Part shown: positions 7,992 to 54,416 of the stretch, piece by piece
How positions within the stretch are numbered: the first letter of the stretch is position 1
Layout: every line of letters begins with the position of its first letter
Origin: Arachidicoccus rhizosphaerae
Lineage (GTDB): Bacteria; Bacteroidota; Bacteroidia; Chitinophagales; Chitinophagaceae
Direction: 5' to 3'
DNA: 64,000 bases
NCBI RefSeq assembly: GCF_900107765.1
Contig: NZ_FNQY01000021.1
Coordinates: forward strand, 1-64,000
Made by a program: the position numbers and the translations under genes
Notes under the pieces: model-generated
The model's database searches: none
The model's input: the letters and a program-made list of their open reading frames with translations, nothing else
Told to the model about the DNA's origin: nothing

Positions 7992-9519
7992 CTACTGTTC
8001 TTCTGTCAGAAATTCAGCCACTTCATGGTCTTTGGAGGAGAAAGTGATGCCGACTGCGATTTTCTGTCTGGGATCGGTTAAATATGGCTTAAGGTAACCT
8101 TTATCTTTAATCTGATGTAGCGCCTCGGCAGCAGTCCCGTCCAGCTTAAACTCCAGCACATATATATAATCTGCAGTTTTGACCAGTACATCACTTCTGC
8201 CCCTTGCACTGTGCACTTCAGTAAAGACGTCAACACCCGCCAGACGGAAGGTCAGAAAGACGATAATATTAAATATAGATTCCGTATCTGCTTTCCAGTG
8301 GTCATAGGCAATGGTTGAAATCAGAGTATTTAGCTGAGTGACAAGATGCTTAATATCGCAGCTATTCAGGGCTTTTTTGATACTAGCAATGATGGCCACT
8401 GAATCCTCCCAAGGGGCTTCCCGGTAGAGGCTCAGCAGGCCATCCAACAGGCTTGCCTTTACTTCCCGGTTCGGACAGCCAAGCTCATAGATCTGATCAT
8501 CAGAAGAAATATTTTTAATGGTCAGATACCCGGTCTGGAAAAGCAGGGAACCCGAATTGGGATTATCCGTGTCAAAGGTCGATAAAGCAAGGCTGCCCAT
8601 TTCTATGCCTTCAACATCATAAACCGCCCGCCTTTTAAGCTGCTGGATTAAAAAAGTCGGGGTTCCGGTAGTGAACCAATAATTACGAAAAACCGGGTCT
8701 TTCAAAAACTTAAGTAAAGAAAAAGGATTATACACCCATTCCTTCATATTCCAGGTATAGCCGTTATACCAATCTTTGATCTGGGGTAGTATGTCGGGCT
8801 TGTTTTTTTGTAGTTCCGTGATTTCCCGGGAGAAATTCTCCTCCAGTTCGGATTGAGTGATTCCTACCAACCCTCCGTAATGACTGGACAGGGTTATATT
8901 ATCCAGGTTATTCAAATCTGAAAAAATACTTACCTTACTGAACGGGGTTACCCCAATAATCAATAACAGTTGAATATACTTATCATTTCCTTTGAGAATA
9001 GAATAAAAGCTTTTTAAAATGGAACGGTTCGTTTCCACCATATCCCGGTCATCCAGAAAATCGATAATTGGTTTATCGTGCTCATCAATCAAGATTACCA
9101 CTTTACCTCTCTCTGCCAGCTTTTCTAATAACTCCCTTAACTGCAGCACAATACCTTTGCCTGTTAATTCAACTCCGTACTTTTTAGCATTTAAACTAAG
9201 GTCATAAATGATTGCTGCACTCATCCCTTCTTATTTGTAAGGTAACGCTGCAAGGTCAAAGTGAATTACCGGATTTGTCTTGGTCCAGTCCCATTTGTCA
9301 CGAATAAAAAGACCTTCAAACAGTTCTCTACTGCCTTCAAATAGCTCTTTAATGGGTACTGATTAGCAGACTTTTGCCAAAACGTCTGGGGTGAGTAAGA
9401 AAATAATATACGCCCGTTTCCACGAGCCTGTGGATGACTTCCGTCTTATCAATATAAACATAGCCACCCTCCCGGATTTCCCGGAAACTCTGCAAGCCAA
9501 TCGGATATTTGCGAATCAT
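7992..9519 (-). pseudogene. AAA-ATPase-like / PD-(D/E)XK nuclease family gene, inactivated
   Basis: Read as one frame from the ATG at 9519, this matches the intact paralogue at 30651-32177 end to end: an N-terminal [21 protein letters not shown] opening, the P-loop-like [10 protein letters not shown], the Walker B-like VVILIDEHDKP, and a C-terminal nuclease-like domain (DVLVKTADYIYVLEFKLDG). Two lesions break it. A CCC run at 9354-9356 has one base too many and shifts the frame, and a TAA at 9231-9233 stands in a conserved part, probably from GAA, AAA or CAA. The remaining 410-codon frame from ATG 9224 lacks the P-loop and so would not make a complete ATPase. The lesions could in principle be assembly errors, but two independent ones argue against that. 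Confidence 0.88.
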
Positions 9520-10037: not shown

Positions 10038-10892
10038 TTACTCTTGTATGCCCCTTAGGAGGTTTTCCAAGATTACACAATTTGTTTCAATAGAATTCTC
10101 AAAATATTGTGTCATTATGCGAATCATTCGACTATTAATTGAATCCTTAATATTAAACCTAATAAGTTTCTGCAACCTGGTATAAATGTTCTGGTTTGTG
10201 TTGATAATCTTTTTGATTTCCCTTCCTAAGACCGTTGCGGAAACCTGAATTAATTCCACGTCCTCATCTGTAAACAAGTCAGAATGATTTTCCCATATTT
10301 CGTTATCGTTTATTTCGAAATAATGATTTAATATCTCACAAATGTCAATTAAATCTGTTTGACGGATTTCCGGGCGGTCTTCCCATGCCAAAAGTTTTAA
10401 AATGACAATTCCAGGCAGTGTGCAACATTTAAATTGATGTTTGTCCTCTAATTCGATCTTCGGCAGGCCTGATAGATATATTTCTTTAAATGCTGGCACG
10501 TCTATATTTGTAAAACCGGTACCAGTGACCGTCACACTTCCATCAAAATCCTCGATTGCCCCAAAAGGCATAAGGTCTATAATGATTCTGTCATTCCACA
10601 ATAATGCAAATGCATTGTCATGCGTGGGTATGAAATTTTCATTTTCAACGAGGTAAGCCCGCAATAATTCGAATTTACCTTTGTCATTTATCAACACCCC
10701 TAAGTCAATATCTTTAGTCGTTCTACTTGGTTTAATGTCATTAATAGCTTGTAACCAAATATCGCGAGCTACTGCGCCGACCAAATAGTAGTCTATTCCA
10801 AAATTCTTAAATCCTCTTTCTAATGCGTCAAGCATTTCGCAGTGATTACTGTCCCATCTGATTTGATTCAAATTGATTTTGAAGGTAGTCAT
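10038..10892 (-). CDS. Nucleotidyltransferase, AbiEii-like toxin of a type IV toxin-antitoxin pair
   Basis: The start at 10892 (MTTFKINLNQIRW) was chosen over the ATG at 10931 because it overlaps the upstream gene less (47 bases). The protein has a nucleotidyltransferase core: YLVGAVARDIWL, then RTTKDIDLGV with the metal-binding Asp61 and Asp63, and later IIIDLMPFG supplying a third acidic residue. AbiEii-type toxins transfer nucleotides to RNA and stop growth. The overlap with the upstream AbiEi-like gene indicates translational coupling, as expected for antitoxin-first pairs. It could also be a general nucleotidyltransferase of unknown target; the gene pairing favours AbiE. Confidence 0.8.
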   Translation of the reverse strand: MTTFKINLNQIRWDSNHCEMLDALERGFKNFGIDYYLVGAVARDIWLQAINDIKPSRTTKDIDLGVLINDKGKFELLRAYLVENENFIPTHDNAFALLWNDRIIIDLMPFGAIEDFDGSVTVTGTGFTNIDVPAFKEIYLSGLPKIELEDKHQFKCCTLPGIVILKLLAWEDRPEIRQTDLIDICEILNHYFEINDNEIWENHSDLFTDEDVELIQVSATVLGREIKKIINTNQNIYTRLQKLIRFNIKDSINSRMIRIMTQYFENSIETNCVILENLLRGIQE

Positions 10893-11868
10893 TATAAATT
10901 TTTTGAGCGGTGTCAAAGCTTCGCCTATCACCAGCGTTTATTAGATCCGTGTATACAAGTAATGGAGGTACTGTATTAGCCTCTGTGGCATTCTCCCAAA
11001 ATCTTTGGTATATCTTAATATTGCCATTGTTGTCTGGAATTAGCTTATAATTTTTCATCAGTTCAGCTTTTGTTTCGGTAGTATACATTGTCAATTCGCC
11101 AGGGTGCAGGTAATCAGTGAGTATATCGCCGGCAGGTTCTCCTCCCCAGGCTGTCTTTTCTATATTCAATTCCATGTTTTTCCAATTGCCGAAATCCTCC
11201 TTTCTGAGAAAACGAAACGTTCCAATGAGAAGTGTCGGTTTTAACCGTTCTTCGTAAGCAGTTACCCACTTTTGAAGCAGTTCCTTCTTATTATTCAATA
11301 CTAGCCTTTTATCATCAACACTTGTTATGAAATGTAGCTGCTTTAAACCTGTTATAACGTAATTAATATTTCCCAACGCTACGTTGGTGATTTTTGCGAT
11401 TTCTCTGTACGTAAGATTAAGTAGATCCTGATCGACTAAACAATTAAAAAGTACTTTAAGACCTGTTTTAGTGAATGCACGGTTCCCTTTTTCATTTTTA
11501 GCAGGGATGCTCCTTTGCCCATCCAACCAAAGTGTAACACCATTTCGCTTTAGAAAAATATTTCCGTTTGCTTCAAGATATGCTACTCCAGCCTGCCTTA
11601 ATGTATGCTTTATATTTGGAAAAAGACTGCGGGCAACTACGATGACAGGACTGCTTGTTAGATTGTTTGCTAGAATTGCAGGAATCTGAACGTTCCTAAT
11701 CGTGTCTCTTACAATGGCATTAAACAAAAACAGTTCACCATCCATGATAAAAGTAATTTTCCCATCTGTCTCATTTAGAGGAGTTGCTTCCCATTTACCA
11801 GTGATTCCGGCATTTTCCTTCAATATCTCAAGGGCATGGATTACTATTTTATCTCTATTATTGTTCAT
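10846..11868 (-). CDS. AbiEi-like transcriptional regulator, antitoxin of a type IV pair
   Basis: The 340-residue protein has a central winged-helix-like segment at about residues 140-200 (LLNLTYREIAKITNVALGNI, then VDDKRLVLNNKKELLQKW), which matches the layout of Bacteroidota proteins annotated as type IV toxin-antitoxin AbiEi family. Such antitoxins repress their own promoter and counter the AbiEii nucleotidyltransferase without binding it. The toxin-like gene overlaps its 3' end by 47 bases. Palindromes directly upstream of the start (11880-11916) are good candidates for its operator. The assignment rests on pattern and context. Confidence 0.75.
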   Translation of the reverse strand: MNNNRDKIVIHALEILKENAGITGKWEATPLNETDGKITFIMDGELFLFNAIVRDTIRNVQIPAILANNLTSSPVIVVARSLFPNIKHTLRQAGVAYLEANGNIFLKRNGVTLWLDGQRSIPAKNEKGNRAFTKTGLKVLFNCLVDQDLLNLTYREIAKITNVALGNINYVITGLKQLHFITSVDDKRLVLNNKKELLQKWVTAYEERLKPTLLIGTFRFLRKEDFGNWKNMELNIEKTAWGGEPAGDILTDYLHPGELTMYTTETKAELMKNYKLIPDNNGNIKIYQRFWENATEANTVPPLLVYTDLINAGDRRSFDTAQKIYNDYLQNQFESNQMGQ

Positions 11869-30650: not shown

Positions 30651-32177
30651 TTACAATTCTTCTGTTTTATAATCATTCACTGTACGTTGCGCTGAGGAAA
30701 AAGAAATCCCGACCGCTATTTTCTTTCTTAAATCGGACTCGTAAGGCTTTAAATATCCTTTATTCTTAATTTGATGCAGGGCATCCTCAGCGGTACCATT
30801 CAGCTTTAGTTCCATAACGTATATATAGAGCTCTGTTTTGACAAGAATATCGCATCTGCCCGTGGCACTATGAACCTCAGTATATACATCTACTCCGCTC
30901 AGTTTGAAGGTTAAATAGGTGAGGATATGAAAAATAGATTCAGTATCTCCCTTCCAATGGTCATAGGCTATTGATGAAGTCAACGCATTCAATTGGTTAA
31001 CCACTCCTTCTATATCAAATCCTCTAAGGCTCCTGTTTAACTTCTTGATTAACTGTAGAGTATCGCCTCCTGAGGTATTCCTATATGTACTAAGCAGGCC
31101 CCCTAAAAAACTAGACTTAACTTCCTTATTTGGAAAACCTAATTTATAGAGTTGACGGTCCGAGGAAATTTTTTTAATCGTCAGGTAACCCGTTTGAAAG
31201 AGTAGAGAACCAGGGTCGGGATTATCTGTATTAAAACTAGATAAATCCTGGCTGCTGGCCTCAATATCTTCCACATTGTAAATCGAATGCATTTTTAGTT
31301 GCTTCAACAAAAAAGTTGGAGTTCCAGTTTCAAACCAGAAATTCTGAAATATTTGATACTTCATGAATTTTAGTAATGAAAATGGATTATAAACCCAGGT
31401 GTTCATATTCCACGTATAACCATCATACCAGTCCTTGATCTGGGTAAGAATATTTGGGTTGCTCTTTTGCAGATCATCAATTTCTTCTGCAAAATTTTCT
31501 TCCAGCTCCTTTTGTGTGATCCCTATAATTCCGCCATATTGAGGTATTAAGCTAATGTTGTCCAAATTATTTAGATCGGAGAAAATACTTACTTTGCTAA
31601 ATTGGCTCACACCTGTAATCAGTAAAAAACGAATATACCCATCACTTGGTTTTAAGACAGAATAAAAACTCTTCATAATGGAGCGGTTTGCTTCCAATAG
31701 ATCCAGATCATCCATAAAATCAATAATAGGCTTATCATATTCATCGATCAGGATAACTACTTTGCCATTTAAAGAGGCCTTTTCTATCAATTCCCTAAAC
31801 ATTAGGTCATATTCCTTCCTGTGAAGCGAAATACCTAACCTATTCGCATTATCTTCCAATGCCCCTATAATAGCATTTTCCAAGCCTCTTGTCCTAAGGC
31901 CAATATTAGCAAAATCAAAATGAATTACCGGGTTTGTTTTCGCCCAGTCCCACTTCTCGTGTACCCAAAGGCCCTCAAAAAGTTTTTGGTTTCCGCTGAA
32001 AAGTTCGTCAATTGTATCCACTAAAAGGCTTTTGCCAAAGCGCCTGGGACGACTCAAAAAATAATACTTACCAGTATTTACCATTTGATAAATATCCTCG
32101 GTCTTATCTATGTAAACATAGCCTCCTTCTCGGATTTCCCGAAAACTTTGCATTCCAAGTGGATAAATTCTGGGCAT
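30651..32177 (-). CDS. AAA-ATPase-like / PD-(D/E)XK nuclease family protein
   Basis: The 508-residue protein begins [23 protein letters not shown], the characteristic opening of the AAA-ATPase_like family (PF09820 type). A P-loop-like [13 protein letters not shown] (about residues 43-55) and Walker B-like VVILIDEYDKPIIDF (about 140-154) follow. The C-terminal part has a PD-(D/E)XK-type nuclease core (GVDVYTEVHSATGRCDILVKTELYIYVMELKLNG, with Asp and the E-x-K pair). Such proteins are numerous in Bacteroidota; their role is unknown, and mobile-element control or defence has been suggested. It is intact, unlike its paralogue at 7992-9519, and is monocistronic. Confidence 0.9.
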   Translation of the reverse strand: MPRIYPLGMQSFREIREGGYVYIDKTEDIYQMVNTGKYYFLSRPRRFGKSLLVDTIDELFSGNQKLFEGLWVHEKWDWAKTNPVIHFDFANIGLRTRGLENAIIGALEDNANRLGISLHRKEYDLMFRELIEKASLNGKVVILIDEYDKPIIDFMDDLDLLEANRSIMKSFYSVLKPSDGYIRFLLITGVSQFSKVSIFSDLNNLDNISLIPQYGGIIGITQKELEENFAEEIDDLQKSNPNILTQIKDWYDGYTWNMNTWVYNPFSLLKFMKYQIFQNFWFETGTPTFLLKQLKMHSIYNVEDIEASSQDLSSFNTDNPDPGSLLFQTGYLTIKKISSDRQLYKLGFPNKEVKSSFLGGLLSTYRNTSGGDTLQLIKKLNRSLRGFDIEGVVNQLNALTSSIAYDHWKGDTESIFHILTYLTFKLSGVDVYTEVHSATGRCDILVKTELYIYVMELKLNGTAEDALHQIKNKGYLKPYESDLRKKIAVGISFSSAQRTVNDYKTEEL

Positions 32178-48473: not shown

Positions 48474-49182
48474 GGTAATGATCTGTTTTTGTTCCTTTTC
48501 TTATAATTAATTGAATCATAAGTAGATACAACTCCGCCTCTGCCTCAACTTCAGTCCCGTCTTATCTCCTTGCCGGATTTTTTAAAATAAATGCTTCATT
48601 AAGTCGACATGTCTTGTATAACAGTCAGTAATTCCTCAGTGTTATTCAGTGTTATTTCATGACTGTTTTGCTTTTGATAAGCCTGAGCATAGAGTTGAAG
48701 TTGTAGTAGCAATAGACCTAAAAGCAGAAGTTAATCTACTTGTCAGTTTGGTTCTTGCATTTCCCTACCTAATTGAGACTAATATTCTGGCTACTCTACA
48801 AATTTCTATTAACTAGGCAGAAAAGACCCGACAAATCCTTTCAAATAATCGATGTTTTCTATCATTCTGACGGCATCAGTAATCATACCCGCGACAGCCA
48901 CCCCAATACTTAATATTTAAAATAAATTTTCAGTAAAAAAACATCAAAGATTAATAACAGGTAAAACGATTGTAAATAAAGGCTTTGCAATCGTTTTTTA
49001 ATTTTTTGGTAATGAGGTAAAAAGCAGAAAAAAGCGAGGTTAGGCAAAAGTAAGGTTACTAAAACGTTACTTTCAAGCATTAGAAACAACCGATTTAAAA
49101 TGCTGTATTTCAGCTTTCTGCATGGTTTTTCATATTGTTCGTAGCTCACATAGATTTAATTTTATCATTAAGAATTGCGAGT
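48474..49182. other. Region of about 709 bases before the integrase relic, with a terminator
   Basis: No gene is supported. AAAACGATTG (48963-48972) and CAATCGTTTT (48988-48997) form a 10-bp stem followed by T, a plus-strand terminator just outside or at the left end of the island. The exact island boundary and attachment site were not found. Confidence 0.45.
48963..48999 (+). terminator. Terminator at the left end of the island
   Basis: A perfect 10-bp stem with a 15-base loop ends in a run of six T. It precedes the integrase relic by about 180 bases and would insulate the island. Confidence 0.7.
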
Positions 49183-50113
49183 ATGGAAACGACAAAAAAT
49201 CAACATTTAAGGTACTATTCTACCTTAAAAAGAACGCCCCGAAGAAAATCGGAAAAGTTACGGTTATGTGCAGGATTACCGTAAACGGCAAACAGTCTGC
49301 ATTCAGTACCAAGCTGGATATTTCCGCAACAAATTGGGATTTGAAGCACGGCAGGGTTTTAGGTAAAAGCCGGGAAGCCCAAAAAACAAACAGCAAACTT
49401 GACAAAATCCATTCAGGTATTGAGGAATGCTATTCCAAAATTCCGAAGAACGAGGGGGCTGTAAACAGTACTAAATTTAAAAATTCCTTCCTCGGTATGG
49501 AAAGCGGAGAACTGACCTTTTTCAAATTCTATGAACAGTTCTTATCCGAAAATGAGAAAAAGGTCGATAGCGGACTTCGAGTAAATGGAACACGAAGTAA
49601 GTATAAAACACTATTAAGACATCTTCGCAACTTTGCACTTACAAAATACGGATACTCTGATGTGTCTTTTAACAACCTTACTCCTGATTTTGCACAGGAC
49701 TTTGATTACTAACTGCGTGACGACCAAAGCTTGACACATAACACCATTTGGCTGCATATGATTGGATTAACCACGCTTTTTCGTTTGGCAATGAGCAGAA
49801 AGCATCTTGCTTTCAATCCGTTCAGCGAGAATAAGAAAACCAAAAAGGACAGAGACCGTGGTTACCTGTTGCGGAATGAGCTGGAACAGCTTGTAATGTT
49901 CAACTGCGACTTAAGGAAGGACGAGTTAGTAAAAGACATGTTTGTTATCAGTTGCTTTACTGGTCTTTCCTATTCAGATATGAAAGGAACATTGCCCCTA
50001 CGCAGATTTATGCCAAGATACTCAACGAGAAAGTTGGTAAGGATATGCAAAAGGTACCGCATAAATTTAAAGGGTTGGAACGGTCTTTTGTTTCGCAACT
50101 TTTAAACCAATAA
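49183..50113 (+). pseudogene. Tyrosine-type site-specific integrase, inactivated
   Basis: The reading KKSTFKVLFYLKKNAPKK, then RITVNGKQSAFSTKLDIS and LTFFKFYEQFL, is the arm-binding and SAM-like N-terminal part of Bacteroidota tyrosine integrases. A TAA (about 49711-49713) interrupts FDY-LRDD; the frame then continues to VISCFTGLSYSDMKG. Most of the catalytic domain is deleted there, and the C-terminal IYAKILNEKVGKDMQ with the Tyr nucleophile follows in another frame to 50113. The likely start ATG at 49183 is itself out of frame by one base. At least three lesions make it dead. Confidence 0.9.
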
Positions 50114-50129
50114 AGCGATTAAAGAAAGT

Positions 50130-50157
50130 CAATGCAGGTTTTGCATTGGCTTTTTTT
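50130..50157 (+). terminator. Terminator between integrase relic and PLD operon
   Basis: CAATGCA and TGCATTG form a 7-bp stem with a 5-base loop followed by GC and seven T. It separates the integrase relic from the three-gene operon that starts 54 bases later. Confidence 0.8.
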
Positions 50158-50210
50158 GTACTTTAGAGCACAATAAAGCGTATACTTATCATAAAGACAA
50201 TATAAAGTCA

Positions 50211-51779
50211 ATGATTCAAAAACTGCAACCATACTATAAAAAAGCTATTAGGACATCCTTATTGACTCAAGATAGATTATCTAAAAAATGGTACCATTTA
50301 TTTTCTGTAATAGAATTATTCACAGAGGATGAATATGTTTATAAGATTCCAAACAGTGATTGGATAGAAGGGTGTATAAGAGCCAAACAGTCAAAATTAG
50401 AAGAATATTCATTGTATCTTTCAATTGATGAAATAGTTTCTTTTGATGAGGCTTTAAAGGCTTTTGAAAAACCGTTTGAAAACTTTTTCATTGACGGACA
50501 AAAAATATCTTTCGTTAATTCATCTTTTGTAAAAGAACCATCTGGAAATTATCCTTTAGTTTTCGCTTCTAACTTCTACACAGACAAAGGTATTGCTTCA
50601 ATCCTTCCAAAAAGAAAGTCAGGTTTATTGGTTTGGTGTCAAATTGACAACCAACGAAAAACCGACAATAAATTTATTTCTGCAAGTGTAACAAAGGAAA
50701 TGTCAGCAATGCAAGAGCTAACTATGGAGTGGTTAGGTTTTGACATTTTACAAAAAAGAGAGCACATAGGAAACATCTACCTATCTGCACCAAATCCATA
50801 TTTCAGAGAAGTAGAAATGTCTCTTTCTACCGACCCAATGGGTGTGTTTTATAAAATACTAACGCGCAAAAATAATTTTGAGCCACTAAAATTCAGAATT
50901 ATAGATAAGCATGGAGGTGCAATAGCATTGGACAAAACCATTGAAATAACAAAGCAAGTAGACCTTATTGAACTTCCGCACGAACCTCACTTATTTGAAC
51001 TAAGAATATACAATCAAGATAATGACTTGATTGCTATTCACGAGCCTGCGACTTTTCTACGAAGCATTCAATTTGGAATGTCTATAAAACAAGCTGATTT
51101 TCAGGTCAAAGTAGAAACAGAAAAAGGAAACAAAGAATTTATGGTAGAAAAATTTTCTAAACAGAAGCCTAATATTATAGGTAAAACAAAGGATTTCGCC
51201 CCTGAATATTATTTCCAAAACGCAGACAAAGAGAGACAACACATAGAACTTGCCCAACGCAAAGAATTCATTTTTTATCCGGGAGCAAAAGAGGAAGCCG
51301 AAAAAACAAAACTGAAAGAAAATGCAAAATCTATAATTAGAGAAATCATAAACAACGCTAACGATACTTGCTATTTATGTGACCCATATTTTAGCAGTAT
51401 GGACATTGTTGAATTTGCATTTCAAATTAAAAATTCAGGAGTTAAAATAAATATACTTAACAGTAAAGAAGCCGTTTCAAAAGAAGAAGCTAAAAAAATA
51501 GCAACCGTAATAAACGAATACAACAGCAAACCATTTGGAAAAATTGAAGTTCGAATTCTTAGAGGCAACAGCATTCTCCACGATCGATTTATAGTTACTG
51601 ATAAAAACGTCTGGTTCATAGGAAGTTCATTCAATGAGTTTGGAAATAGAGCATCATGCATAGCCAAAATTCCAGACTCTTCAGGTAAACTCATCATCAA
51701 AGAGATTGAAAAATGGTATAATTCAGATGAGTTTTCTCAAAATATTATAGACTTTACAAAAGAAACAGAAAATGGCTAA
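50211..51779 (+). CDS. Large protein with C-terminal PLD-like HDR domain, possible nuclease
   Basis: The 522-residue protein is AT-rich in its coding sequence. Residues 1 to about 340 are of a type I cannot place firmly; from memory they recall proteins annotated as VPA1262 family (GNIYLSAPNPYFRE). The C-terminal part has CDPYFSSMDIVEF (Asp391) and LHDRFIVTDKNVWFIGSSFN: His457, Arg459 and Asp464 give H-x-R-x4-D, a variant of the H-x-K-x4-D phospholipase D motif with Lys replaced by Arg. Only one such motif is present, so a dimer would be needed to form one active site, as in single-motif PLD nucleases. It overlaps the next gene by eight bases. No signal peptide. The nuclease role is inference. 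Confidence 0.85.
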   Translation: MIQKLQPYYKKAIRTSLLTQDRLSKKWYHLFSVIELFTEDEYVYKIPNSDWIEGCIRAKQSKLEEYSLYLSIDEIVSFDEALKAFEKPFENFFIDGQKISFVNSSFVKEPSGNYPLVFASNFYTDKGIASILPKRKSGLLVWCQIDNQRKTDNKFISASVTKEMSAMQELTMEWLGFDILQKREHIGNIYLSAPNPYFREVEMSLSTDPMGVFYKILTRKNNFEPLKFRIIDKHGGAIALDKTIEITKQVDLIELPHEPHLFELRIYNQDNDLIAIHEPATFLRSIQFGMSIKQADFQVKVETEKGNKEFMVEKFSKQKPNIIGKTKDFAPEYYFQNADKERQHIELAQRKEFIFYPGAKEEAEKTKLKENAKSIIREIINNANDTCYLCDPYFSSMDIVEFAFQIKNSGVKINILNSKEAVSKEEAKKIATVINEYNSKPFGKIEVRILRGNSILHDRFIVTDKNVWFIGSSFNEFGNRASCIAKIPDSSGKLIIKEIEKWYNSDEFSQNIIDFTKETENG

Positions 51780-52368
51780 TATTTTTTTGACAAATTCTGA
51801 AAATACCGCACTTAGAATGCACGAGTGTGGGGAGGGTGAATACTGGTTTTACCATAAAGGTTCTTTCCCAAATGACAATCCTCTTTTGTATCAAGAGTTG
51901 ATTGATAACGCCAATAGTCAAATAGTTATTTGGGATCCGTATTTTAATGTAAATCCTCCAAAAAATGAAGACCAAAATATCTTTGCTAATATAAAAAATG
52001 ATATTACTATTAAAATATTAGTTTATAGGTCATTTCAAAATAATAGGAATTATTTGAACGATGTTAAAAATACTTTAAAAGTCGTTATTCCACCTGATAA
52101 GGATTGTAGGTTTGGTATGAGATTTATAAATGGCGATGACACTCATAATCAAGGAGGTCGCTTTTTTCATGACAGATTTTTAATTATTGATAACAATGAT
52201 GTTTTTTTAATTGGAAGTTCTGTTGGTTATCATATTAAGCCGGAACTATCAACAGGAATCTTTAAAGTGTCTAACAATGAAACAAAAGGTTTCATTAAAT
52301 CAATTTTCAAACACTATTGGGATAATTCTACAAAGCACGAAATTCCACTGACCTTTTTACACCTTTAA
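51772..52368 (+). CDS. Small PLD-like HDR protein
   Basis: The 198-residue protein has the same two signatures as its upstream neighbour: IVIWDPYFNVNP (Asp55) and FFHDRFLIIDNNDVFLIGSSVGY, with His133, Arg135 and Asp140 as H-x-R-x4-D. The rest matches only in general layout. Its start overlaps the stop of the upstream gene (ATGGCTAA), so the two are translated together and could form a heterodimer in which each supplies half of a PLD-type active site. It lacks the long N-terminal part of the neighbour. No signal peptide or membrane segment. Confidence 0.83.
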   Translation: MANIFLTNSENTALRMHECGEGEYWFYHKGSFPNDNPLLYQELIDNANSQIVIWDPYFNVNPPKNEDQNIFANIKNDITIKILVYRSFQNNRNYLNDVKNTLKVVIPPDKDCRFGMRFINGDDTHNQGGRFFHDRFLIIDNNDVFLIGSSVGYHIKPELSTGIFKVSNNETKGFIKSIFKHYWDNSTKHEIPLTFLHL

Positions 52369-52371
52369 ATA

Positions 52372-54339
52372 ATGAATAAAGAAATTTTTTATAATTATGA
52401 TTGTTACGCTCTTGAGCGAATATACCCTGAACGCAAATTTGTTGAAATTTTAGAACAAATTTCATCGCTGAATGACTCTATAAAGCCATTCATAAGTAAT
52501 GTTACCGACTTGTTGCACACATCAATCAAAGATGATAAAAATATAGAAATTACAGAAATTGTTTCACCAAACATAGACGAAGAATTAGAAAAAAAATTAG
52601 CAGACAGTCCACTTTATACTTCGTATAAATCTCATTCAGAAAAAAGCTTATCGAAATTTGTTTTCAATAAATTTTTAAGAAGAATATTCAAAAAGGACGG
52701 TCACAATAACGAAACTCACGTTATTCAAGATTACATTCATTCGTGGTTAGAGAAAAATTTAGCTATAAACATTGTTCAAGATTCACGCTTTAGTTCTTTA
52801 GAGGTACTAAAATCGTTATTGGATAAAACCGAAATGCTTCACGGTTTTTATGTTGACTTAATTAAAAATATCCCAACTGAATGGATTTTAAGTAACAAAG
52901 ACGAATGGATAAATGTAAATGTTAGTCCTGATAAATTGCTTGATAATATTAGGACGTTTGACAAAGAATTTGTCAATGGATATGAGAGTTCTTTATCAAA
53001 ACTATCAAAAGAAAATCTTTGGAATTTTGTTCAAGAAGCAACAGGTAATTCGGATTATATGATGTTGAACCGCGAGTTTAGCTTTATATCTTCCGTTCTG
53101 ATTAGAAAAGACATTTCTCTTTGGATTGAATTTTGGGATAATCTGAAACTTCCCGCAATTCAAGATTGTGTGTTTATGTCCTCGTTGAATTTTGTACCAC
53201 AAGAATATTTACAATTGGTTTCTATACTTACAGATGAAAAAACATCTGTAAAATCTGACTTGAAAGTTCTCTTGTTTATTGTTGCTCAAAATTATTTTGA
53301 AGCATCAAATAAATTGACGGAACGCTTTTCTATCTATGAAGATTTAGAAAGAAAAAATGAAAGAAACCAACAGTTTTTTGAGAAAGGAATTAAGCAACAA
53401 AAAAAATGGCTTGAAGAAAAGAAAAAGAACTATAAGGCTCTAATCCAATCTTTGAAGAAAAAGCTATCAAATTCGGAAATTGAAGATTGGATTTTTAGTT
53501 ACCGACCAAGAACAAATAACTGTCAATATAGACCAAACGATATTTACAATTTAGAAATAAAGTTATTGACGGAGGTTTACAAAGAAAAATGTGTTGAATT
53601 TTTGAGTTTAGATTTGCAATCATTCAATTTACAAAAGTTCAATTTTTATGTAGAAGTAATCAAAGACAAAGAAGACAAAAAAAATGCGTCAACTTTACTT
53701 GGGGCAATGGTAATTTATATCTCCTCCGATAAATTCTATTGGGATAAAACTTATGTAGAGCCATATTGGTCTGCATTAAAAGGCTTAGGATTTATAATAG
53801 GTCAACAAGAAAAACCTATTGAAAAGGCAAAAGAGTTAATAAATAAATTTAAAATAATTCATCAAGGTTGGAATCCATATAAAATTGACTATAAGCTATT
53901 AACGAAGGAAACTTTTATTTATTCGGGTATTTCATTGCTGCTTGAAAATGAATCAGCATTCAATAACAACAATGATAAAGAAATCTTTTTCAAAGAATTA
54001 TTAAGTCATATTTTAATCCAAGACAGATATTCTCAGGTCGACAATTCAGAATATTATCAAATGCCATTACATTTATTATTTTTAGTTGCCAATCAAATAC
54101 TTCCATCTATTAAAGAATATTATGAGTTAGAACTTATTAATAATTATGATAACCTGTATTCTCTTTTATCTGTTTTATCAAGTGAAGAAAAACCTATTTG
54201 TGATACCTCTAAAAAATTAATAAGTGAACGGCTTGATAAAGAATTTTTTGTAGAAAAAAAGCAGTTCAGTAATCGTAGCCAAAAAGATAAAGTACAAGAG
54301 TTAGAGAAGATGATAGAGCTGTTAAACATTGAAAATTAA
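52372..54339 (+). CDS. Large protein of unknown function, third gene of the PLD operon
   Basis: The 655-residue protein starts three bases after the previous stop, so it belongs to the same operon. It is not recognised. It is mostly helical by composition, without signal peptide or membrane segments. A Lys/Glu-rich, probably coiled-coil stretch lies at about residues 335-385 (KNERNQQFFEKGIKQQ, KKNYKALIQSLKKKL). No P-loop, nuclease or HTH motif was seen. Fixed partnership with two PLD-like proteins suggests a sensor, scaffold or target-recognition role. The coding sequence is AT-rich like its neighbours, unlike the genes outside the island. Confidence 0.85.
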   Translation: MNKEIFYNYDCYALERIYPERKFVEILEQISSLNDSIKPFISNVTDLLHTSIKDDKNIEITEIVSPNIDEELEKKLADSPLYTSYKSHSEKSLSKFVFNKFLRRIFKKDGHNNETHVIQDYIHSWLEKNLAINIVQDSRFSSLEVLKSLLDKTEMLHGFYVDLIKNIPTEWILSNKDEWINVNVSPDKLLDNIRTFDKEFVNGYESSLSKLSKENLWNFVQEATGNSDYMMLNREFSFISSVLIRKDISLWIEFWDNLKLPAIQDCVFMSSLNFVPQEYLQLVSILTDEKTSVKSDLKVLLFIVAQNYFEASNKLTERFSIYEDLERKNERNQQFFEKGIKQQKKWLEEKKKNYKALIQSLKKKLSNSEIEDWIFSYRPRTNNCQYRPNDIYNLEIKLLTEVYKEKCVEFLSLDLQSFNLQKFNFYVEVIKDKEDKKNASTLLGAMVIYISSDKFYWDKTYVEPYWSALKGLGFIIGQQEKPIEKAKELINKFKIIHQGWNPYKIDYKLLTKETFIYSGISLLLENESAFNNNNDKEIFFKELLSHILIQDRYSQVDNSEYYQMPLHLLFLVANQILPSIKEYYELELINNYDNLYSLLSVLSSEEKPICDTSKKLISERLDKEFFVEKKQFSNRSQKDKVQELEKMIELLNIEN

Positions 54340-54378: not shown

Positions 54379-54416
54379 AAGAAACAGCCAACTGTTTTAG
54401 CAGTGGGCTGTTTCTT
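54379..54416 (+). terminator. Terminator of the PLD operon
   Basis: AAGAAACAGCC and GGCTGTTTCTT form a perfect 11-bp stem with a 16-base loop, 40 bases after the last stop codon of the operon. The symmetric A and T flanks could let it act in both directions. Confidence 0.85.

Follow-up and report, generated by a model that had tools for sequence, protein, structure and literature searches.

Several described systems come close to a cluster of three genes, here called A, B and C, that we analysed in a 64,000-nucleotide stretch of the Arachidicoccus rhizosphaerae genome (contig NZ_FNQY01000021.1, positions 1 to 64,000; hereafter the window). Gene A encodes a VPA1262 family protein with a phospholipase D (PLD) domain, gene B a smaller PLD-domain paralogue and gene C a predicted helical protein, and together they are a candidate defence system. 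Named VPA1262 proteins such as those of loci L051 and L052 are single chains of about 1,100 amino acids in which A is joined to a second half of about 480 to 540 amino acids, whereas the window has a separate C, with no detectable similarity to this fused half, and the additional gene B. The PADLOC candidate PDC-S05, a single-gene candidate, matches the PLD part of A (E value, 9.5e-13) over profile positions 182 to 302 of 306 only. The N-terminal 180 positions of this profile have no match in A, and identity with PDC-S05 was rejected. DrmC of DISARM and the single-motif PLD nucleases Nuc, NucT and Zucchini likewise share the PLD domain with A, which differs from them in its HxR instead of HxK motif, its large N-terminal region and its predicted solenoid partner C. 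The profile of DISARM DrmC aligned to residues 371 to 473 of A, again the PLD part only (E value, 3.1e-7). With this partial match and no DrmA, DrmB or methylase among the neighbouring open reading frames (ORFs) on inspection, DISARM was rejected as well.

The nuclease of the Wadjet system, JetD, is a Toprim protein and not a PLD protein (PMC10586767). None of the products of A, B and C is a Jet or Mks protein, and an operon uniting JetA, JetB, JetC and JetD, as in Wadjet, is lacking in the window but present at locus L054; there and at locus L050, relatives of A and C stand directly behind Wadjet or MksBEFG operons. The VPA1262 family name and a PDC-S05-like PLD part are already known, and we found no published PLD-solenoid pair tied to Wadjet. 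In the literature searched, neither VPA1262 nor a PLD-Wadjet link had been the subject of a study, although subscription papers and bioRxiv were thinly covered, so that a description elsewhere is possible. A preliminary description of the window had called the operon a candidate undescribed defence system. This holds for the system, as no described system of such make-up was found, but not for A, which already belongs to a named NCBIfam family.

Gene A and the conserved gene order

The ORF list places the three genes as follows.

50211..51779, forward strand: gene A, 522 amino acids
51772..52368, forward strand: gene B, 198 amino acids, overlapping A by 8 bases
52372..54339, forward strand: gene C, 655 amino acids, starting 3 bases after the stop codon of B

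The overlap, the three-base gap and the PLD-like motifs of A and B are exactly as first described. The A protein matched NF040700 (VPA1262_N_dom) with 260.4 bits (E value, 2.9e-77; curated cut-off, 80 bits) over the whole length of the model (positions 2 to 477 of 478), which makes it a member of this family. It was not among the matches, up to an E value of 1, to the full-length model NF040699 (1,026 positions; cut-off, 325 bits), for which the A proteins of an Azospirillum plasmid and of L054 scored 27 to 30 bits and the fused L051 and L052 proteins 1,181 to 1,188 bits.

An N-terminal region of unknown fold is followed in A by a C-terminal PLD domain (residues about 353 to 503), to which PLDc_2 matches above its cut-off (E value, 3.8e-10). 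The motifs are D391-P-Y-F, H457-D-R459-x4-D464 and G471-S-S-x-N475, with the starts of DPYF and HDRF 66 residues apart. In both A and B, HDRFxxxD precedes IGSS, and the motif is thus H-x-R-x4-D in place of the HxKx4D of the PLD superfamily. D391, P392, H457, D458, R459 and S473 are invariant among 15 diverse A homologues with identities down to 12%. The AlphaFold2 model of A was poor (mean predicted local distance difference test [pLDDT] score, 43.5), and the PLD part alone was used. A Foldseek search with this low-confidence model returned TrmBL2, Zucchini, NucT and Nuc with a probability of 1.0, which, together with the PLDc_2 match, places the HDR motif of A within a PLD fold, as had been presumed. 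Against the PDB, the A profile had a single weak match (MITD1; E value, 0.35).

Another, distant Bacteroidota genome (L003) encodes A, B and C at 84, 80 and 79% identity, with ratios of nonsynonymous to synonymous substitution rates of 0.11, 0.11 and 0.19, respectively, relative to the window. Genes conserved to this degree are not chance ORFs, and the ratios indicate that all three are under purifying selection. Relatives of C were found in four genome contigs: L003 with A-B-C, L004 with A-C and no B, L005 (Salibacter) with A-B-C in which B lies in two frames, and L006, which begins inside C. Each of the VPA1262 genes on plasmids of Azospirillum, Burkholderia, Klebsiella, Methylorubrum, Bradyrhizobium, Rhizobium and Gluconobacter is likewise followed by a gene for 490 to 660 amino acids, with a small B-like gene in between in three of these loci. 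The order A-[B]-C was seen in all 14 loci read (L048, L050 and L054 included) across Bacteroidota and Pseudomonadota, with a downstream gene of 490 to 690 amino acids. The three families therefore do occur together elsewhere, as the preliminary description would require. The family is rare and patchy: of the Bacteroidota genomes sampled, 3 of 395 carry it, as do 2 of 197 from the window's own taxonomic family, both counts including the window genome. Translated searches (tblastn) with C against plasmids and with A against phages found nothing, nor did scans of viral contigs with A and C profiles or a comparison of the Klebsiella operon DNA with Escherichia coli genomes.

The optional paralogue B and the predicted helical protein C

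The B protein is a PLD-domain paralogue of A that lacks the N-terminal region. It is 25% identical to the PLD part of A over 191 residues (profile-profile E value, 4e-6) and carries D55-P-Y-F and H133-D-R-x4-D, 78 residues apart; PLDc_2 matches it below the cut-off (E value, 2.3e-4). B is present in 6 of the 14 A-C loci, frame-shifted in 2 of these, and absent from the other 8. A must therefore be able to function without B, and an obligatory A-B heterodimer across the family is unlikely, though such a heterodimer is possible where B occurs. Judged by this distribution, A and C are the core of the module and B is optional. The two frame-shifted copies belong to unrelated loci (L005:9340-9995 and L036:9494-10178), and in each a -1 frame change splits B shortly 5' of the HDRF motif; the Salibacter change falls at T TTT TTC, that of Azospirillum at a poly-A run. 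The remainder of B is intact in the other frame, and programmed frameshifting, phase variation and decay are all possible.

No profile in Pfam, NCBIfam or PADLOC matched C. Its AlphaFold2 model (pLDDT, 64.8) is all-helical, and residues about 195 to 655 resemble karyopherins, SF3B1 and cohesin SA2 with Z scores of about 10 to 11. Such scores are common among helical repeats, and the likeness therefore supports a predicted HEAT-like alpha-solenoid in this region of C but no kinship with these proteins. The top Foldseek match of C was condensin, at a nonsignificant E value of 0.0076. A PDB profile search with C returned only ETV6-fusion constructs (best E value, 0.001, with no domain passing alone) and a weak kinase match, which we regarded as noise. 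The Lys/Glu-rich, coiled-coil-like stretch noted earlier does correspond to one long helix (residues 330 to 362 of this moderate-confidence model), but most of C is predicted to be solenoid, and a plain coiled-coil sensor was rejected.

Homologues of C were recovered at 79, 67, 61 and 23% identity, the last being the C protein of L054 (E value, 2e-16). Sequence and profile-profile comparisons detected no similarity between the window C and the proteobacterial, L050 or fused versions. A common role of C across phyla is therefore suggested by position only, and we do not claim common descent, the profile-profile comparison of Bacteroidota C with all the other C groups having detected no relationship.

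Defence neighbourhoods and the flanks of the window locus

The two operon links to Wadjet and Mks, in each of which A-C follows a complete anti-plasmid SMC operon, come from Bacteroidota. At L054, from the window's taxonomic family, the gene order is JetA-JetB-JetC-JetD-A-C, a type I Wadjet operon (PADLOC E values, 4e-135, 2e-66, 0 and 3e-120 for JetA to JetD). Downstream of A-C lie a conjugation coupling protein of the TraG/TraD type and then Thoeris ThsB and ThsA. As a whole, L054:1857-19344 is a conjugative element carrying type I Wadjet, the VPA1262-C pair and Thoeris. The L050 operon encodes a 398-amino-acid protein in the MksB position, MksE (E value, 3.5e-45), an SMC (structural maintenance of chromosomes) protein with DUF3584 (E value, 2e-59), a JetD-like protein, A and C, and the stop codon of the JetD-like gene overlaps the start of A (TAATG). 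As the A proteins of these two divergent loci are only about 21% identical, the association with Wadjet or Mks either arose in distant branches or was retained there. On the Azospirillum plasmid (L036), an SMC-like ATPase gene lies 32 bp before A. A CorA-like protein and a 1,314-amino-acid SMC/AAA_23 ATPase are encoded at L036:2638-7854, ahead of VPA1262 A-B-C and seemingly in the same operon, which is possibly a larger undescribed system.

Further copies lie near Dsr2 (E value, 2e-180), SoFic (3e-42), an LmuA-like protein, an E1-like protein and a helicase-methylase. In a rough control, the far sides of the same eight plasmids contained an anti-phage gene in 0 of 8 stretches, with toxin-antitoxin-type genes only; this contrast is indicative only, since the control was read from the names in the annotation, and a PADLOC scan was added for the test loci. 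The defence context assumed in the preliminary description is stronger than it had guessed, given the Wadjet/Mks linkage and the proximity of Dsr2, AbiU, SoFic and Thoeris. AbiU (E value, 5e-110) and type I restriction genes adjoin L040:7662-8408, which encodes a 248-amino-acid orphan comprising the PLD half of VPA1262 only (E value, 1e-13), with no adjoining C. At L042:601-3433, genes for Multiubiquitin, a ThiF-type protein and DUF6527 lie near a VPA1262 pair and may form a ubiquitin-like defence operon.

The window genome (99.99% complete) gave no match to DUF3375 (JetA), DUF3584 (JetC), JetD_C or MksE in profile searches. The window A-B-C would therefore act without Wadjet, and it could be an arm only of a Wadjet complex of a type that these models miss. 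The flanks of the cluster contain the following features.

49122..50105, forward strand: broken tyrosine-integrase gene, ORFs of 196 and 124 amino acids split by a stop at 49710-49712
50129..50160, forward strand: probable terminator hairpin between the integrase remnant and A (CAATGC..GCATTG, then a T-run), read from the sequence
54379..54416, forward strand: inverted repeat directly 3' of C, a probable transcription terminator (16-nucleotide arms, 94% complementary, 6-nucleotide loop)

The integrase remnant retains arm-binding and SAM-like domains (Arm-DNA-bind_5 E value, 3e-16; Phage_int_SAM_5 E value, 2e-7) and lacks the catalytic part. For the hairpin at 50129..50160, the repeat search reported the other strand only. 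The guanine-plus-cytosine (GC) content falls from about 0.44 to 0.28 to 0.33 at A-B-C, and third-position GC is 0.25 to 0.26 versus 0.52 to 0.54 in two neighbouring genes, a base composition unlike that of the surroundings, as already noted in the preliminary description. A repeat search of the flanks found no att-like direct repeats, and an empty insertion site was not demonstrable, as the nearest relative (G945) has only two-component genes in common with the window. Elsewhere in the window, two adjoining ORFs (10041-11868) look by eye like an AbiEii-like nucleotidyltransferase toxin with its partner, and two others (7995-9224 and 30654-32177) like an AAA-ATPase-like family frequent in Bacteroidota.

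Proposed function and alternative explanations

We propose, with a probability of about 0.62, that A-B-C is a horizontally acquired nuclease module directed against mobile DNA, a candidate defence system that is stand-alone in some genomes and wired to Wadjet in others. The effector would be A, a PLD-type nuclease with a single motif. Each active site would require two copies of this motif, supplied by a homodimer or by A with B, and B may serve as an optional additional PLD subunit. C, encoded just downstream of A or as the C-terminal half of the fused VPA1262 proteins, would be a helical-solenoid partner that recruits, senses or restrains A. The module would act alone in the window genome, presumably on phage or plasmid DNA; in some relatives A-C may share a transcript with the genes of a Wadjet/Mks SMC complex and would probably act on the same invading DNA.

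Several findings weigh against this proposal. No clear defence gene was seen in 3 of 7 proteobacterial A-C neighbourhoods (L037, L039 and L043), and no relationship was detected between the C proteins of Bacteroidota and those of Pseudomonadota. Where PLD enzymes have their catalytic lysine, every member has an arginine, and the motif aspartate is absent from A of L044, L048 and L050; catalysis by A is therefore not certain. The PLD site could be degenerate and A-B-C a non-enzymatic nucleic-acid-binding complex, acting in regulation or repair and carried by mobile elements. The uniform Lys-to-Arg change would fit such a complex, as would the structures closest to the A model, which include the DNA-binding TrmBL2, with its PLD-like domain, and the pseudo-PLD protein FAM83, and the proteobacterial B proteins, which lack the Ser/Asn motif. 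However, the site His, Arg and Ser are invariant at 12 to 20% identity, an unusual degree of conservation for a dead site, and we consider this explanation unlikely. The genes could also form a toxin-antitoxin or abortive-infection pair, with A killing or stalling infected cells and C (or B) holding A inactive, in agreement with a two-gene core of overlapping or adjacent reading frames and with the frequent loss of B while A and C are kept. Such a pair is quite improbable, as C exceeds A in size and does not resemble an antitoxin, and fused single-chain versions exist.

Alternatively, A-C could be an accessory of Wadjet/Mks SMC complexes, in which the HEAT-type C has a role like that of the eukaryotic HAWK subunits and delivers A, the PLD nuclease, to extruded plasmid DNA; stand-alone copies would be detached or paired with another SMC partner. 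Two independent operon linkages to different Wadjet types, the SMC-like ATPase at L036, the solenoid-like nature of C and its nonsignificant condensin match point in this direction. Most A-C loci, however, have no Wadjet, the window genome lacks all of the Jet and Mks models searched and the solenoid similarity of C is generic, which leaves a general accessory role distinctly unlikely. In a more specific form, A-C would be a second nuclease arm of SMC defence, with a HAWK-like C docking A on Wadjet/Mks, and lineages such as that of the window would have re-used this arm without Wadjet and with a duplicated B; this is very doubtful.

The analysis gives the curated, so far uncharacterised VPA1262 family a partner gene, a predicted PLD active site and a recurrent operon linkage with Wadjet, and the family thereby becomes directly testable in the laboratory. 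If A-C does add a second nuclease to Wadjet, models of JetD as the sole plasmid cutter would need extending. If A-C acts alone, it would be a new defence system whose PLD motif departs from the standard.

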